A program made the position numbers and the translations under genes. Of a stretch of DNA of 64,000 bases, positions 44,499-51,370 are shown one piece after another. Positions within the stretch are counted from its first letter, which is position 1, and each line of letters begins with the position of its first letter. The DNA comes from Nitratidesulfovibrio termitidis HI1 (GTDB taxonomy: Bacteria > Desulfobacterota > Desulfovibrionia > Desulfovibrionales > Desulfovibrionaceae). Under the pieces are notes generated by a model. The model saw only the letters and a list, made by a program, of their open reading frames with translations, had not been told where the DNA came from and did not search any database. The stretch lies in contig NZ_KI632512.1 in the NCBI RefSeq assembly GCF_000504305.1, forward strand, positions 652,388 through 716,387, given 5' to 3'.

Positions 44499-44543
44499 AA
44501 CACTCCCCACGCACAACCCCGCAAAGACAGACATACCATCCAT

Positions 44544-45675
44544 ATGCTTCAGCTTGCCGAATTGCGCGCGCGCAGCGCCGCCCTCATCGACCAGTACGCC
44601 TCCCTCTGGGGGCGTCTTTGACCTTGCGGGCAACCGCAACCGCCTCGACGAGATCGAGCGCCAGCTTTCCAGCCCCGACGCCTGGAACAACCCCGAAAAA
44701 CTCACCCCGGTCCTGCAGGAAAAAAGCCAGCTCGAAGGCGAGATAACGCGCCTGGAGCGGCTGGAAACCTGCCGCCGCGACGTCACCGAATGGCTGACCC
44801 TGGCCGAGGAAGAAGAAGCGGCGGGCGAACCGGGGCAAGAAGCCCTGGAATCGCTGGCCGAACAGGTGACGGTGCTGGAAAACCTGCTGCAGGAGACGGA
44901 GATGAACATGCTCCTCTCCGGCAAGGAAGACCGCATGCCCGCCATCGTGGAAATCCACCCCGGCGCTGGCGGCACCGAAGCCCAGGACTGGGCCGAAATG
45001 CTGGTGCGCATGTACCTGCGCTGGGCCGACACCCACGACATGAAGGCCGAATACCTGGACTACCTGGCGGGTGACGAGGCAGGCGTGAAAAGCGTCACCC
45101 TGCGCATGTCCGGGGCCAATGCCTACGGTCTGCTGAAGGGCGAAAAGGGGATTCACCGGCTCATCCGCATTTCGCCGTTCGATTCGTCCGGCCGTCGGCA
45201 CACCTCGTTCGCCTCGGTGGACGTGATCCCCGACGTGGGCCAGGAAATCACCGTGGACATGAAGGAAACGGACCTGCGCATCGATATCTTCCGTTCCAGC
45301 GGCCCCGGCGGCCAGAGCGTGAACACCACCAGTTCCGCCGTGCGCATCACCCACCTGCCCACGGGCATTTCCGCCCAGTGCCAGAACGAAAAGTCGCAGC
45401 ACAGCAACCGCGACACGGCCATGCAGATCCTGCGCGCCCGGCTGTACGAACTGGAACTGCGCAAGCTGGAAGAAGAAAAAAAGGCCCAGTACGCGGGCAA
45501 GGACGCCATCGGTTTCGGCAGCCAGATCCGCACCTACACGCTGCAACCGTACCGCCTTGTGAAGGACCACCGCACCAATACGGAAATTGGCGACGTCGAG
45601 GCCGTGCTGGACGGCCGCATCGATCAGCTCCTGCGGGACTATCTGCTGTACCTCCATGGCCAGAAAACCAATTGA
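44544..45675 (+). CDS. prfB: Peptide chain release factor 2 (programmed +1 frameshift)
   Basis: The gene must be read as 44544-44618 joined to 44620-45675, giving 376 residues. The zero-frame start ATG CTT CAG runs to CGT CTT TGA (TGA 44619-44621), preceded by a Shine-Dalgarno-like TGGGGG; slippage by +1 on CTT continues as GACCTTGCGGG. This is the classic RF2 autoregulation: low RF2 favours the shift. Visible motifs are [16 protein letters not shown] (the SPF anticodon-like tripeptide recognising UGA/UAA) and [10 protein letters not shown] (GGQ catalytic loop). The UGA sensor is relevant here because UGA is also proposed to be recoded at 48688. Confidence 0.96.
44606..44622 (+). promoter_or_regulatory. 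RF2 +1 ribosomal frameshift site
   Basis: TGGGGGCGTCTTTGACC: an internal Shine-Dalgarno-like G-run, three bases, then CTT TGA C. This is the canonical slippery CUU-UGA-C context. Confidence 0.93.
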
Positions 45676-46636
45676 CGCTGCCATGACCGGCTGGACCGGC
45701 GGGACCGACGTGACCGGTGTGACCGGCGGGACCGACCACCCCGAACCGGTCGTCCCTTCCGCAGAAGCGGGAACCCCGGGCGATTCCGCCCAACTGCTGG
45801 GCGAACTCGACGCCCTGCGCCGCGCGCTGGCCGAAGAAGCCGCGCGAGCCGCTTCCGCCAATCCGGATCAGCCGGTCGACGCCCCCGCCGACGGCCCCCT
45901 GCTGGCCGTGGCCCGACTGTTTCCGGGCATGACCCGGCACCGCTGGCTGACCCTGGCCGAAGAACACGGCCTGCGCGAATGGTTCGCCATTGACCTGGAC
46001 AAGAGCACCAACTTCAACCTGCGCGAACTGCAAAAGGCCGTGGAAGAACTGGCCCACCAGCGCGATCACGACCCCCTCACCGGCCTGATGAACCGCCGGG
46101 CCTTCCTGCGCCAGGTAGAACTGGAACTGCAGCGGGTACACCGGGGCGGCACCGAGATATGCCTTGCCATGCTGGACCTGGACGACTTCAAGCGGGTCAA
46201 CGACACATGGGGGCACGCCTGCGGTGATCTGGTGCTGCGCCGCCTGGCCGACCTGCTGCGCGACGCCACCCGCGCCTACGACGTGGCGGCCCGCATCGGC
46301 GGCGAGGAATTCGTGCTGCTGCTGCCGGGCGCATCGCCCATGCGTGCCCAGGCCCTGCTGGAGCGGCTGTTGCAGGACCTGCGCGACGAATCCTTCGAAT
46401 GTCGTGGCGAAACCTTTCGGAGCAGCTTTTCGGCGGGCATCGCCGGGTGCAAGGGCGCCACGGTGTGCCAGGCGGAAGAACTGCTGGACCGGGCAGACAA
46501 GGCCCTGTACGAGGCCAAGGCCTCCGGCAAGGCCCGCGTGCGGGTGCACCGGCTGCCGGGCGTGCCCGACTACGACCGCTCGACCATGGTGCAGTCGGAC
46601 GAGAAGCAGTTTCTTTTTTCAGGAAATGATGACTAG
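45656..46636 (+). CDS. Diguanylate cyclase (GGEEF domain) with I-site
   Basis: About 326 residues. The N-terminal part is not a recognised sensor (an Ala-rich helix, then PLLAVARLFPGMTRHRWLTLAEEHG). A GGDEF domain follows: DPLTGLMNRRAFLRQVE, MLDLDDFKRVNDTWGH, active site GGEEF (about 215-219) and the inhibitory RxxD (RAYD, about 206-209) at the standard spacing. It should therefore make c-di-GMP and be product-inhibited. ATG 45656 overlaps the end of prfB; ATG 45683 is an alternative. The first residues (MTGWTGGTDVTGVTGGTD) are encoded by a 9-bp tandem repeat. No membrane segments are visible. Confidence 0.85.
   Translation: MARKPIDAAMTGWTGGTDVTGVTGGTDHPEPVVPSAEAGTPGDSAQLLGELDALRRALAEEAARAASANPDQPVDAPADGPLLAVARLFPGMTRHRWLTLAEEHGLREWFAIDLDKSTNFNLRELQKAVEELAHQRDHDPLTGLMNRRAFLRQVELELQRVHRGGTEICLAMLDLDDFKRVNDTWGHACGDLVLRRLADLLRDATRAYDVAARIGGEEFVLLLPGASPMRAQALLERLLQDLRDESFECRGETFRSSFSAGIAGCKGATVCQAEELLDRADKALYEAKASGKARVRVHRLPGVPDYDRSTMVQSDEKQFLFSGNDD
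45686..45739. repeat. Six-unit 9-bp repeat at the 5' end of the diguanylate cyclase gene
   Basis: Units ACCGGCTGG, ACCGGCGGG, ACCGACGTG, ACCGGTGTG, ACCGGCGGG, ACCGACCAC. Being a multiple of three it keeps frame and encodes TG-rich tripeptides. Confidence 0.85.
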
Positions 46637-46726: not shown

Positions 46727-47545
46727 ATGACGCAGAACACCACACTCAGCGTTTCCATACTCAGCGGCAAGGGGGGCGTGGGCAAGACCAACATCGCCCT
46801 CAACCTCGGCTATTGCCTGTACCGCGGCGGGCACCCCCTGCTGCTCATGGACTGCGACCTCGGGCTGGCCAACCTGGACGTCCTGCTGGGCATTGCCCCG
46901 GACAAGAACATGCAGGACCTTCTGGACAGCGACGCCGCACCGCGTGACGTCGCCGTGCCCATCGAGCAGGGCGGCTTCGATTTTCTGCCCGCCGCATCGG
47001 GCGTGCCCGAACTGGTGGAAATGGACGGCGACATGCGCGCCCTGCTGGTGCGCAAGCTGGAGCCGCTGTTCGCGCAGTACGACTTCCTGTTTCTGGACCT
47101 TGGCGCGGGGATCAATCCCACGGTGCTGGCCTTCGCGGCCATGACCCAGTTGCGCGTCGTCATCGTGACGCCGGAACCCACCTCGCTCACCGACAGCTAT
47201 GCGCTGATGAAGGTGCTTTCCACCCAGCACGGGGTGCGCGACTTCTTCGTCATCGTCAACCAGGCGGAATCGCGCAAGGAAGAGACCCAGACCTTCGAGC
47301 GGCTGGCCGCCGCCTGCCGCAAGTTTCTGGACATCGAACCGCAATTTCTGGGCGGCGTGCGCCTGGACAAGGCCCTGCCGGACGCGGTGCGCAAGCAGAA
47401 GCCGCTGATGCGCGTTTCCCCGCAATCGCCTGCCGCGCAAGACCTTTTTTCCATCGCCGTCAAGCTGCAACGCATGCGTGCCGCCCTGCTGCCCGAACTG
47501 GCAGACAGGCACCCGCTGCGCGCACTTTCGGAAGAGGCATATTAA
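46727..47545 (+). CDS. MinD/FlhG-family P-loop ATPase
   Basis: 272 residues. Deviant Walker A SGKGGVGKTNIALNLG (about 12-27), Walker A' DCDLGLANLDVLLG, and switch II FLDLGAGINPTVL. This is the ParA/MinD superfamily; the form closely resembles FlhG (YlxH/MotR), which limits flagellar number, rather than MinD because no amphipathic membrane-targeting helix is evident at the C-terminus. ATG 46727 is used; ATG 46712 is in frame and close by, and neither has a strong Shine-Dalgarno. It follows the diguanylate cyclase and precedes HU. Confidence 0.82.
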   Translation: MTQNTTLSVSILSGKGGVGKTNIALNLGYCLYRGGHPLLLMDCDLGLANLDVLLGIAPDKNMQDLLDSDAAPRDVAVPIEQGGFDFLPAASGVPELVEMDGDMRALLVRKLEPLFAQYDFLFLDLGAGINPTVLAFAAMTQLRVVIVTPEPTSLTDSYALMKVLSTQHGVRDFFVIVNQAESRKEETQTFERLAAACRKFLDIEPQFLGGVRLDKALPDAVRKQKPLMRVSPQSPAAQDLFSIAVKLQRMRAALLPELADRHPLRALSEEAY

Positions 47546-47793
47546 CCCCTTGAAACCTTGACCATCTTCGGCCATAGTGCGTCCATCGTCTTTGGATTTG
47601 CCACGGAACCCCACCCTACCCCCCCATGGAAGGGTGGAAGGGCTGTTCCGGCAAGGCTTCAGCGCATCCGGCGGCAGGCTCCACGCCACGCACCGAAAGT
47701 TACAGGCCGCGTCGGCCACGTCGGCCACGTCGGCCACGTCATCCGGGGCGAAACGAGCCGCCCCCACCGCACCGCCGCATCACGGAGGATTCC
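47546..47793. other. MinD-type gene / HU gene spacer
   Basis: 248 bases containing a hairpin with arms CCACCCT (about 47611) and AGGGTGG (about 47632) and three perfect tandem 9-mers (47711-47737). No promoter was identified with confidence. Confidence 0.45.
47711..47737. repeat. Three perfect 9-bp tandem repeats upstream of HU
   Basis: GTCGGCCAC three times without mismatch, 57 bases before the HU start codon. It belongs to the same 9-bp period class as 6572-6625 and 45686-45739. Confidence 0.9.
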
Positions 47794-48069
47794 ATGAACA
47801 AGAGCGAACTCATCAAGACGCTGTCCGACGAGACGAACATCCCCATCGAGGAAGCCGCCATGGTCGTGAACACCTTCGTGGACAACATGAAGGAAGCGCT
47901 GGCCGATGGCGACCGCGTGGAAATTCGCGGTTTCGGCAGCTTCAAGGTCAAGGACTACGGCGGCTATTCCGGTCGCAACCCCAAGACCGGCGACATGGTC
48001 GTCGTCCAGCCCAAACGCCTGCCCTTCTTCCGCGCCGGGAAGGAACTGAAAGAATTCCTCAACGACTAG
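47794..48069 (+). CDS. HU-family DNA-binding protein
   Basis: 91 residues, the standard HU length. MNKSELIKTLSDETNIPIEEA begins the helical body; GDRVEIRGFGSFKVKDYGGYSGRNPKTGDMVVV carries the conserved GFGSF and the RNPKTG beta-arm tip whose proline intercalates DNA. Compacts and bends chromosomal DNA as a dimer. ATG 47794 is preceded by CACGGAGGATTCC. The stop is three bases before the start of the putative selenoprotein gene. Confidence 0.94.
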   Translation: MNKSELIKTLSDETNIPIEEAAMVVNTFVDNMKEALADGDRVEIRGFGSFKVKDYGGYSGRNPKTGDMVVVQPKRLPFFRAGKELKEFLND

Positions 48070-48072
48070 GCG

Positions 48073-49449
48073 ATGCCCTCGCAGTCATCGCCTGACGGCA
48101 CGGCGGCACGGGCTCTCCGTGCCGCCGCCCCGACGCTTCGCCCGCATCCGACCCCTCTTTTCCGTTTCACCCAGCCGCGCCCGCACGGGTTCGCGGCATG
48201 GTTGTGCCGTTGCCTGCTGCACGTGGCGCTGTGCGCCATGCTTGCCGCGTGTGCCGCGCCCGGACCGCACGGACAGTCTGGCCTATCTGGCACGGCCAGC
48301 GATGCTGCCGTGGCACCGGCACAGGATGCAACACCCGCCACACCGTCACGCGAAGTGGCCAGTGACGCGGCACCTGCCGCACCCGCCATGGCGCGCGACG
48401 GCCTGCCCTCTGGTCTGCCCTTTGCCTCTGCCGGGGAACCCCGCGTGCACATGCCCGCGCCAGCGGCTCCGTCAGCCGTCGAAACCGCTCCTGTTGCCGC
48501 TGCGCGCGGACTGGCGGATTTCGCCCTGGTGGGTACGCAGGGGCAGGATGGACGGAACGGACTGGACGGGGCGGACGCCACGGCGGCACAGGGCGATTTG
48601 GGAGGCTTCGGCGACGGGTCCGGCAGGCCGGTACTGCGCATCCTGTACAACGCCAGCACCAAGGGAACGCTGCACCCCTGCCCCTCCTGAGGGGGCGGCA
48701 CCTCTGGTGGGCTTGCCCGGCGGGCAGGCATGTTCAAGCAGTGGCGCGGGCAGGACAACATTCCGACCCTGGTGTTGACCGGCCCCGACGAATTTGCACC
48801 CGACGCAGGCGAAGATGCGGCTGGCCGCCTGGCAGCCATGACGCGCAAGGCCTACGACCTGCTGCGCGTGGACGATGGCTACCTGTCCGCCGCTGCCGCC
48901 GCCTGGTTCCGCGACAATGCAGGCGGCATGCCTGCGGGTTTCCGGGAGATGGGCGGCGAACCCGCCCCCCGCCTGCATCAGGTGGCCGGGCGCACGGTTG
49001 CCGTGGTCTTTCTGCCCGCGTTGCCCAAGCCGTGGGAAGACCCCACCCCCGCCATGGCCGCGCAGGCGGTGCAGGCCGGGCTGGCCGCACGCGCACGGGC
49101 CGACCTGGTCATCGGCGTGGCCGGATGGGGAGGCCTTGGCGAGCGGCGCTACCTGGCGGAGCTTGGGCAGGCCTTCCACATCCTGCTTGGCGGTGGCATC
49201 GGCACCGGTTTCGACGGGGTCGTGGACGGCGCGGCACCTTCGCTGCTATGGTCCCGGCCAGACATGCAGGGCAGAAGCGTCAACGTGGTGGACGTACTGG
49301 CCTGGCCCCGACGCGTACAAGGTTTTTCGCAGCCCCGGCACTGGATCGTGGGCCTGGATATTTCCGTCCGGCAGGTTCCCCTGAAGGACGCCGTGGAGCC
49401 GGATCCTGCCGTCGAGGCGGTCGTCGGCACGGTTCCCGCCGCCAGGTAG
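48073..49449 (+). CDS. UshA-like lipoprotein with in-frame UGA, probable selenoprotein
   Basis: Two adjacent open frames (48073-48690 and 48691-49449) lie in the same reading frame, separated only by one TGA (48688-48690). Read through, they give 458 residues: a lipoprotein signal peptide (LLHVALCAMLAAC lipobox), an Ala/Pro-rich linker, then LRILYNASTKGTLHPCPS-U-GGGTSGGLARRAG. The tail resembles 5'-nucleotidase/UshA-type proteins whose corresponding motif is PCxC...GGLARR, so the UGA (residue 206) falls where a cysteine is expected, as C-P-S-U. Metal-binding Asp/His of UshA look lost (NAS-TKG for ND-HG; GGGIGTG for GGHxH), so a redox role is more likely than phosphatase. A SECIS-like hairpin follows at 48711. 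ATG 48073 lacks a strong Shine-Dalgarno. The alternative is a nonsense-mutated pseudogene. Confidence 0.75.
48688..48729 (+). promoter_or_regulatory. UGA codon and SECIS-like stem-loop
   Basis: UGA at 48688-48690; GCTTGCCC (48711-48718) pairs with GGGCAGGC (48722-48729) through eight pairs including one G-U, apical loop GGC. The loop begins 29 bases after UGA and starts with G, within the range known for bacterial SECIS elements. A smaller hairpin CACC-TCT-GGTG (48699-48709) is an alternative. Confidence 0.6.
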
Positions 49450-49501
49450 GCAGCGCAACGCGCGCCCGCCCCGGCCCCGGCCAACACAAGGAGCACGCAG
49501 C

Positions 49502-50350
49502 ATGAGCGGCAAGGCACGCACCGTACCCATCCACAAGCTGCATGGGTGCGGCAACGACTTCGTATTCATCGACAACCGGGCGCTCGGCCTGCCCGTCGCG
49601 GCCATGCCCGACTGGGCCCGCTCCGTGTGCCGCCGCGCCTTCGGCGTGGGCGCCGACGGCCTCGTCTTTCTGGACGCAACGCCGAAAGACCGCGAAGGCG
49701 ACTATATCTGGCACTTCTACAACGCCGACGGCTCGCGCGCCGAAATGTGCGGCAACGCTTCGCGCTGCGCCGCGCTGCTGGCCGTGGAACTGGGTTTTGC
49801 CGGGCCGAAGCACGTCTTCGGCACCGATGCCGGGCTCATCCGCGCCGAGGCCGACGTGGCCGCCGGCATGGCCAAGGTGGAACTGACCCCGCCCCGCGAC
49901 CTGGCCCTGGGCATAGAACTGGACCTTGGCGAGGGCCGCGACATGGTGCACTTCGTGAACACCGGCGTGCCCCATGCCGTGGTGTTCAAACGCGACGCCT
50001 CGGCCGTGGACGTGCGCACCCTGGGCGTCGCGCTGCGCCGCCACGCGCACTTCGCGCCCGCGGGCACCAACGCCAACTTCGCGCAGGTCATCGACCGCAG
50101 GAACATTCACCTGCGCACCTTCGAACGCGGCGTGGAGGACGAAACCTACGCCTGCGGCACGGGGGCGGCGGCGGGCGCGTTCATCGCGCATGCGCTGGGG
50201 CTTACGGAGTCCACGGTGAATGTCAGGAGCTCCGGCGGCGAGATCCTGGGCATATCCATTGAAGGCGGCTCGGTGTTCCTTTCCGGCAAGGCCGTGCGCG
50301 TTTTCTCCGGCGAGATGTTCCTGGAAGGGCTGGGGCTGGCCCTGGCGTAA
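49502..50350 (+). CDS. dapF: Diaminopimelate epimerase
   Basis: 282 residues. Converts LL- to meso-diaminopimelate for lysine and peptidoglycan. The two catalytic cysteines are in MCGNASRCAALLA and YACGTGAAAGAF; HKLHGCGNDFVFIDN opens the protein and NTGVPHAVVF lies mid-way. ATG 49502 has AAGGAG upstream. Followed by dapA after about 140 bases. Confidence 0.95.
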   Translation: MSGKARTVPIHKLHGCGNDFVFIDNRALGLPVAAMPDWARSVCRRAFGVGADGLVFLDATPKDREGDYIWHFYNADGSRAEMCGNASRCAALLAVELGFAGPKHVFGTDAGLIRAEADVAAGMAKVELTPPRDLALGIELDLGEGRDMVHFVNTGVPHAVVFKRDASAVDVRTLGVALRRHAHFAPAGTNANFAQVIDRRNIHLRTFERGVEDETYACGTGAAAGAFIAHALGLTESTVNVRSSGGEILGISIEGGSVFLSGKAVRVFSGEMFLEGLGLALA

Positions 50351-50491
50351 CGCACCCGGCCCGCCGGGCCCCCTTGCCGTTGCCGCCCGCTGCCGCATGT
50401 TCAGGCCGTGCGACACAGGCAGGAGCGGCGGCCCCACGGGCATGGCGTGTCGAAGGCCGGGGCAGCAGGTACCCGGCCCAAAGGAGGCAAC

Positions 50492-51370
50492 ATGCAGTTT
50501 CAAGGCGCTTTCACCGCTCTCGTCACGCCGTTCCGCAACGGCGAGGTGGACGAGGAACGCTATCGCGCGCTGGTCGAATGGCAGATCGAACAGGGCATCA
50601 ACGGCCTTGTCCCCTGCGGCACCACCGGTGAATCGGCAACGCTCACCCACCAGGAGCACAAGGACGTCATCCGCATCTGCGTCGAGCAGGTCAAGGGCCG
50701 CGTGCCCGTACTGGCGGGCGCCGGTTCCAACAACACCCGCGAGGCGGTGGAGCTTACCCGCTACGCCAAGCAGGCCGGGGCCGACGGCGCGCTGCTGATC
50801 ACCCCCTACTACAACAAGCCCACCCAGGAAGGACTGTACCAGCACTTCAAGGCCATTGCCGCCGAAGTGCCCATGCCCTTCGTCGTGTACAACGTGCCCA
50901 GCCGCACCGGCACCAACCTGTGCCCGGAAACCCTGGCCCGCATGAAGCGCGACATTCCCGAGGTCGTCGGGGTCAAGGAAGCCACCGGCAACCTGATCCA
51001 GGTCTCGGAAATCATCGAATACTGCGGCGCCGACTTCCAGGTGCTGTCGGGCGACGACTTCACGGTGCTGCCCCTGCTGGCCGTGGGCGGCTGCGGGGTC
51101 ATCTCGGTGAGCTCCAACGTGGTGCCCGCCAAGATGTCCGAACTGTGCCGCGCCTTCTTCGAGGGCGACCTGACCACCGCGCGTCGGGTGCACTACGAGA
51201 TCGCGTCCATCAACCGCGCCATGTTCCTGGAAACCAATCCCATCCCGGTCAAGACGGCCCTGTCCATGATGGGCAGGCTTGAACTGGAACTGCGCCTGCC
51301 CATGGTGCCGTTGCAGCCCGCCAACCAGTCGCGGCTGCGCGACATCCTGTCGGCGGCGGGCATCGTCTAG
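50492..51370 (+). CDS. dapA: 4-hydroxy-tetrahydrodipicolinate synthase
   Basis: 292 residues, standard for the DapA barrel. [38 protein letters not shown], the catalytic tyrosine in [10 protein letters not shown] and the Schiff-base lysine in [11 protein letters not shown] are clear. It condenses pyruvate with aspartate semialdehyde. ATG 50492 has AAAGGAGGCAAC; the frame extends to 50408 without function. A hairpin terminator follows at 51424. Confidence 0.95.

Follow-up and report, generated by a model that had tools for sequence, protein, structure and literature searches.

A predicted Cys-x-x-Sec protein of the UshA-like selenoprotein family 2, encoded across an in-frame UGA codon in Nitratidesulfovibrio termitidis HI1

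Within the window, the whole stretch of 64,000 nucleotides of N. termitidis HI1 DNA that was analysed, a single reading frame runs from ATG at 48073 to TAG at 49447-49449 and contains one in-frame stop, TGA at 48688-48690, raising the question of whether this TGA separates two genes or is read as selenocysteine (Sec) inside one (for details see Table 1). The original prediction, made from the letters of the DNA alone, proposed a selenoprotein gene in one frame split by this TGA only, and quoted the residues across it as HPCPS-U-GGGTSGGLARR; both the frame and the residues were recovered in this study, the site reading CPSU. The TGA is kept in all seven copies compared from the genus of the window (7/7). 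Comparison of the window with six relatives of the genus gave dN/dS values of 0.13-0.26 downstream of the UGA in the same frame, and only 0-1 nonsynonymous changes per pair in the 18 codons on its 5' side; purifying selection acts on both sides of the UGA.

Table 1. Positions of the predicted selenoprotein gene, its elements and its neighbours in the window
Feature	Position	Strand	Remark
prfB, release factor 2	44536..45675	+	conserved neighbour, fourth gene upstream
GGDEF diguanylate cyclase domain protein	45683..46636	+	conserved neighbour
MinD/FlhG-type ATPase	46730..47545	+	conserved neighbour; longest frame from 46646
HU/IHF-family DNA-binding protein	47794..48069	+	directly upstream; match adjoins the gene in 83/96 loci
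Selenoprotein gene (predicted)	48073..49449	+	longest possible frame, 458 residues including Sec206; start codon unsettled
Lipobox LAAC	48241..48252	+	Cys60 of the longest frame; pattern only
UshA_like_Sel_2 domain NF049981	48634..49425	+	residues 188-451; 231.8 bits
Cys of the CxxU motif	48679..48681	+	Cys in 102/104 copies
UGA, predicted Sec206	48688..48690	+	Sec or Cys in 104/104 copies examined
GGLARR motif	48706..48723	+	common to 5'-nucleotidases; its codons make up much of the SECIS-like hairpin
SECIS-like hairpin	48711..48729	+	stem 48711-48718 / 48722-48729, apical loop 48719-48721 (GGC)
dapF	49502..50350	+	conserved neighbour
dapA	50486..51370	+	conserved neighbour

The protein obtained by reading through the UGA matches the NCBIfam profile NF049981 (cut-off 140 bits) over profile positions 1-261 of 262, in good excess of the scores of the separate pieces, which are 164.6 bits for the downstream and 13.2 bits for the upstream piece. 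The CxxU or CxxC site by which members of NF049981 are recognized is present as CPSU, and the window protein appears, by profile and motif, to be a member of this already catalogued family. The first UshA-like family, NF041198 (UshA_like_PCGU), carries the motif CxU (PCGU), unlike the CxxU of the window, and its profile gave only 15.2 bits over positions 24-70 against a cut-off of 275, which places the window protein outside it. A table in a 2026 review (PMC13188914) gives 'UshA-like selenoprotein family 2, NF049981, CxxU' with the source 'GenBank annotated', and the same table holds the sister family NF041198 with CxU; a selenoprotein of this kind is therefore already known. NF041198 also appears in a 2022 review (PMC9312934), and a 2008 survey (PMC2398784) already prints 'COG0737, UshA-like, CxU'. 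The entries for the two families in these three sources give no tested function. The original prediction stated that annotation collections hold (seleno)protein families of this type, and NF049981 and NF041198 are such families.

Beyond what it has in common with NF049981, that is the full-length domain match far above the curated cut-off and the CxxU with UGA, the protein of the window's genus carries an extra lipobox and a long low-complexity linker, neither of which contradicts its membership. The N-terminal motif of NF041198 is similar, all 40 aligned NF049981 members matching that profile at E 0.1 or better (best 1.5e-14); NF041198 differs in its CxU, in a profile length of 519 positions, and in an end that matches multiheme cytochromes. 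Pfam gave zero family matches for the window protein and, for 40 family members, five weak matches of one member each. Of 297 genomes sampled from the class, 162 gave matches to the NF049981 profile (159 above the cut-off), as did 7 of 8 genomes of the window's genus, the gene in the window being the sole copy in its own genome.

In order to see which residue stands at the position of the UGA, we aligned copies chosen from among the NF049981 matches, at first 84 and later 104 in number. The codon at this column is UGA in 80 and Cys in 24 of the 104 copies, with nothing else, in line with the expectation that homologues would carry Sec or Cys here; further copies outside this set (L118-L121) all have UGA. 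The genome of the window gave matches to selA (552.2 bits), the SelB C-terminal domain (64.4 bits), selD (348.2 bits) and tRNA-Sec with the anticodon UCA (83.6 bits), and the sel genes for which a check had been proposed are all present. The selD of this genome (G000:C1:146539-147471, L116) itself carries an in-frame TGA; SelD proteins that are selenoproteins are known.

Among 20 genomes searched for selB, nine were positive, eight with a UGA copy and one (G179) with a Cys copy. selB was thus above the cut-off in 8 of 10 genomes with UGA, while 9 of the 10 Cys-only genomes were without selB above the cut-off and the same nine without a selA match; G179 keeps its Cys copy despite selB and a weaker selA match. 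The relation is visible also inside one group of sequences (g26), in which the UGA genomes G281 and G287 have selA and selB, and the seven Cys copies come from six genomes without selA and selB and from G179, the exception. The UGA genomes G289 and G297 gave no selB match, G289 no selA match either, and six more (G189, G210, G251, G256, G279 and G288) have UGA and selB with no selA match; these eight exceptions are drafts of at least 140 contigs and 75-96% completeness, and assembly gaps are the likely reason for the missing matches. A quick tree of the 104 copies, with long-branch warnings, gave a rough count of seven changes between Sec and Cys, and a test of independent pairs on this tree was not significant (2 supported pairs). 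At seven main loci of another group, g7 (L056-L060, L065 and L066), Cys and Sec copies stand in tandem.

The bacterial SECIS element is a hairpin just 3' of the UGA with G among the first bases of its loop. In the window an 8-bp stem with the sequence GCTTGCCC-GGC-GGGCAGGC lies just downstream, the stem beginning 20 nt and the loop 28 nt after the UGA, and G is the first base of the loop; the stem-loop at 48711-48729 with a G-starting loop, as described in the original prediction, was found again. All six inner pairs are formed in 62 of the 64 distinct UGA copies among the first 84, against 2 of the 11 Cys copies, and in the set of 104 the complete six-pair stem is found in 78/80 UGA copies versus 3/24 Cys copies. 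When the register was slid to 13 other positions, at most 4 of the 64 UGA copies formed all six pairs. L067 and L091, the only UGA copies to lack the standard stem of six pairs, cluster together in the quick tree. A search of Rfam with positions 47000-50500 returned no match of SECIS type, and two weak matches below the gathering score.

Sec and Cys copies mostly encode identical residues at this place (ARR), so the difference in the hairpin between them lies largely in the RNA. At codon 11, CGG or AGG is used by 62 of the 64 UGA copies, and CGC by 7 of the 11 Cys copies. The two groups also prefer different Arg codons, the share of CGC elsewhere in the domain being 35% for UGA copies against 61% for Cys copies, and a part of the stem loss in Cys copies is attributable to this difference. 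Within the UGA copies themselves, CGG and AGG together account for 36% elsewhere in the domain as against 97% at the hairpin site, and this share, far above the background, speaks more strongly than any other evidence for a function of the hairpin in UGA decoding. Taken as a natural experiment, the replacement of Sec by Cys and the decay of the hairpin, mostly where sel genes were not found, support the selenoprotein call. The 80/24 division of UGA and Cys at the column, the sel genes, and the retention of the stem together with the UGA support the reading of the UGA as Sec to the extent possible from sequence, and strongly indicate that the UGA at 48688 would be used for selenocysteine insertion. 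SelA, SelB, SelD and tRNA-Sec would then decode this codon, as directed by the hairpin lying inside the coding sequence.

A profile made from 40 members of the first 84 copies gave weak matches to 5'-nucleotidases in PDB (best E = 0.002), and with UshA and related 5'-nucleotidases (PDB 5h7w, 7d0v and 2z1a) the family has in common the N-terminal strand and the GG-ARR motif. An AlphaFold2 model of the window domain with three other close sequences (four in total, including L002-L004) had a mean pLDDT of 37.4 and was unusable, so that the fold assignment, an N-terminal domain of 5'-nucleotidase (UshA) type, rests on the profiles. The family differs from these enzymes in that the metal ligands are largely lost and a Cys-x-x-Sec lies beside the former site; its domain of 262 positions would, moreover, be too short for a two-domain UshA enzyme. 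In six ligand columns aligned by this profile, 84 of the 104 copies keep no ligand-type residue, 17 keep one and three keep two, none keeping more, and the apparent loss of the UshA metal ligands noted in the original prediction is supported to this extent. At the six columns the window reads S, K, T, D, G and I, the Asp of motif II being the single one kept. The Asp of motif I is kept in 6/104 copies and its His in 5/104, and the first His of GHxH in 0/104 and the second in 3/104; the residues marking an UshA/5'-nucleotidase enzyme (motif I Asp and His, DxGD, GHxH) are accordingly missing as a set from the window protein. Invariant in the 40-member alignment are, among others, Sec/Cys17, GG..RR, P126, E168 and three further Gly. 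With the former motif I on one side and GG-ARR on the other, the Cys-x-x-Sec probably adjoins the former metal site.

The product is predicted to be exported, and in the window's genus it is probably anchored by a lipid. Signal peptides often end in AxA, and by a rough test an AxA pattern was present within 12 residues before the domain in 63 of 83 relatives. A lipoprotein, as in the original prediction, would agree with the LAAC pattern of the window, the start codon being unsure; behind this pattern lies a linker of low complexity, about 125 residues long. The lipobox pattern was present in only 7 of 84 rows, namely the window, the four genus relatives whose sequence includes the N-terminus (L043-L046), and L084/L085. 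The lipobox is for this reason not family-defining, and the lipoprotein form appears to be a local variation.

As to the gene neighbourhood, 80 of 96 loci have a MinD/FlhG-like ATPase upstream and 66 have dapF or dapA on the downstream side, a count that excludes the window and includes many short loci. Seven of the 96 loci have no HU, MinD/FlhG or dap neighbour at all, and all seven are second copies located elsewhere, L068, L077 and L115 of Sec type among them. The neighbours prfB, GGDEF, MinD/FlhG-like, HU, dapF and dapA are uninformative on a redox role. The prfB product terminates translation at UGA and therefore competes with Sec decoding; its presence in the conserved neighbourhood of a Sec gene is probably a coincidence.

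More is suggested by the second copies. Six unlinked second copies of Sec type were examined (L068, L077, L115, L118, L119 and L120), and all six follow a gene for a TPR protein (truncated in L120, where the contig ends) and are followed by a gene for a P-type (E1-E2) ATPase on the same strand. In five of these loci ccmF lies upstream of the TPR gene, the contig of L120 ending before this position, and the CcmH/CycH TPR model gave sub-cut-off matches to both TPR proteins tested (L068 and L077). This order, (ccmF)-TPR-selenoprotein-P-type ATPase, points to a possible function close to cytochrome c maturation or metal handling. At the ccmF locus of the window genome no copy of the motif was found. 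The four second copies of Cys type (L064 and L107-L109) are all accompanied by genes for a prepilin-like protein and an ExeA-like AAA ATPase. The last part of the NF041198 profile (positions 399-518) finds matches among the cytochrome c554-like proteins of the window genome, and these matches and the TPR/ccmF context of the second copies are new in this study; together they are a hint, as yet unproven, of c-type cytochrome chemistry.

For the locus as a whole we consider it quite probable that the UGA is decoded and that the product is an exported thiol/selenol redox protein with a Cys-x-x-Sec site on a dead 5'-nucleotidase fold. One objection, that the TGA is an ordinary stop, a sequencing error or the mark of a pseudogene, leaving two pieces or a dead gene, draws on the standard code, which splits the frame, and on a 239-codon frame (48730-49449) whose ATG comes just past the hairpin. 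It is extremely improbable in view of the UGA kept throughout the genus copies and in 80 of the class copies, of the selection on either side of it, and of the Cys that takes its place in 9 of 10 genomes in which selA and selB were not found; a start at 48730 would, in addition, leave out the conserved GGLARR that lies between the UGA and this ATG. It is likewise very unlikely that the protein has stayed an active hydrolase, either a phosphohydrolase like UshA or a thiosulfohydrolase like SoxB, with Sec as part of its active site. Homology to the 5'-nucleotidase N-terminal domain, the one ligand-type Asp of the window, and weak matches of 3 of 40 members to SoxB (best E 3.7e-4) speak for it; against it stand the ligand columns, empty in most copies, and the Pfam metallophosphatase models, which match none of the 40 members at E 0.1.

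CxxC is the usual spacing of thiol-redox pairs, and the replacement of CxxU by CxxC is most naturally read as a sign of thiol/selenol redox activity, but CxxC-type spacing is also used by metal sites. That Sec or Cys here serves as a metal or heme ligand or in a metal-handling site of an exported metal-binding or metal-trafficking protein is unlikely on the whole, even with the P-type metal ATPase gene behind all six Sec-type second copies, and with MerR and heavy-metal-resistance proteins at the L068 locus, in its favour; no metal gene is found among the identified neighbours of the main locus, and the CxxU or CxxC pair is kept in 102 of 104 copies. The remaining two, L070 4092-4868 (PIKA-U) and L114 (PEAG-U), retain the UGA and the hairpin with the first Cys of CxxU gone, so Sec alone can be the conserved element. 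They agree with a metal site and count against a plain CxxU exchange, which does not predict them.

If the redox reading is correct, the Cys-x-x-Sec would most likely carry out thiol/selenol-disulfide chemistry on another exported protein, most likely in maintaining or assembling exported proteins, c-type cytochromes for example, this last choice being made because of the gene neighbours of the second copies and the cytochrome-like end of the sister family. Sulfate reducers are rich in c-type cytochromes. CcmG and CcmH, the thiol oxidoreductases of cytochrome c maturation, have thioredoxin folds, and in E. coli their genes lie downstream of ccmF. Both systems would have an exported thiol pair, and the linked second copies are located about where ccmG and ccmH lie in E. 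coli; the UshA-like family differs in its fold, as predicted here from sequence, and the copy in the window lies outside a ccm locus. A bolder proposal, rather unlikely at present, is that the UshA-like selenoproteins form a Sec-based exported thiol-reductase system for c-type cytochromes that replaces the work of CcmG/CcmH in Desulfovibrionia. If so, a dead 5'-nucleotidase fold would do the job of CcmG/CcmH, with a fusion to a multiheme cytochrome in family 1 and a ccmF-linked branch in family 2, and the gene in the window would be its housekeeping member. The gene contexts turn the functional gap of NF049981 into a testable idea on c-type cytochromes.

Some minor observations were made on the extent of the family. 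A second family copy at G204:C2:107100-107877 is split into two frames, with a TGA inside the first piece. The paralogue that seemed to lie on the opposite strand beside L008, L010, L013 and L021 was rejected as an antisense artefact, as judged from L010, where this frame is antisense to the gene and dapA and crosses stops. In a sample of 297 genomes from the phylum, 118 that lie beyond the class gave matches below the cut-off, many of which may belong to NF041198, the two families not being separated in this count; among the matches listed, most contain one TGA. The superfamily of UshA-like selenoproteins seems to be much wider than NF049981.
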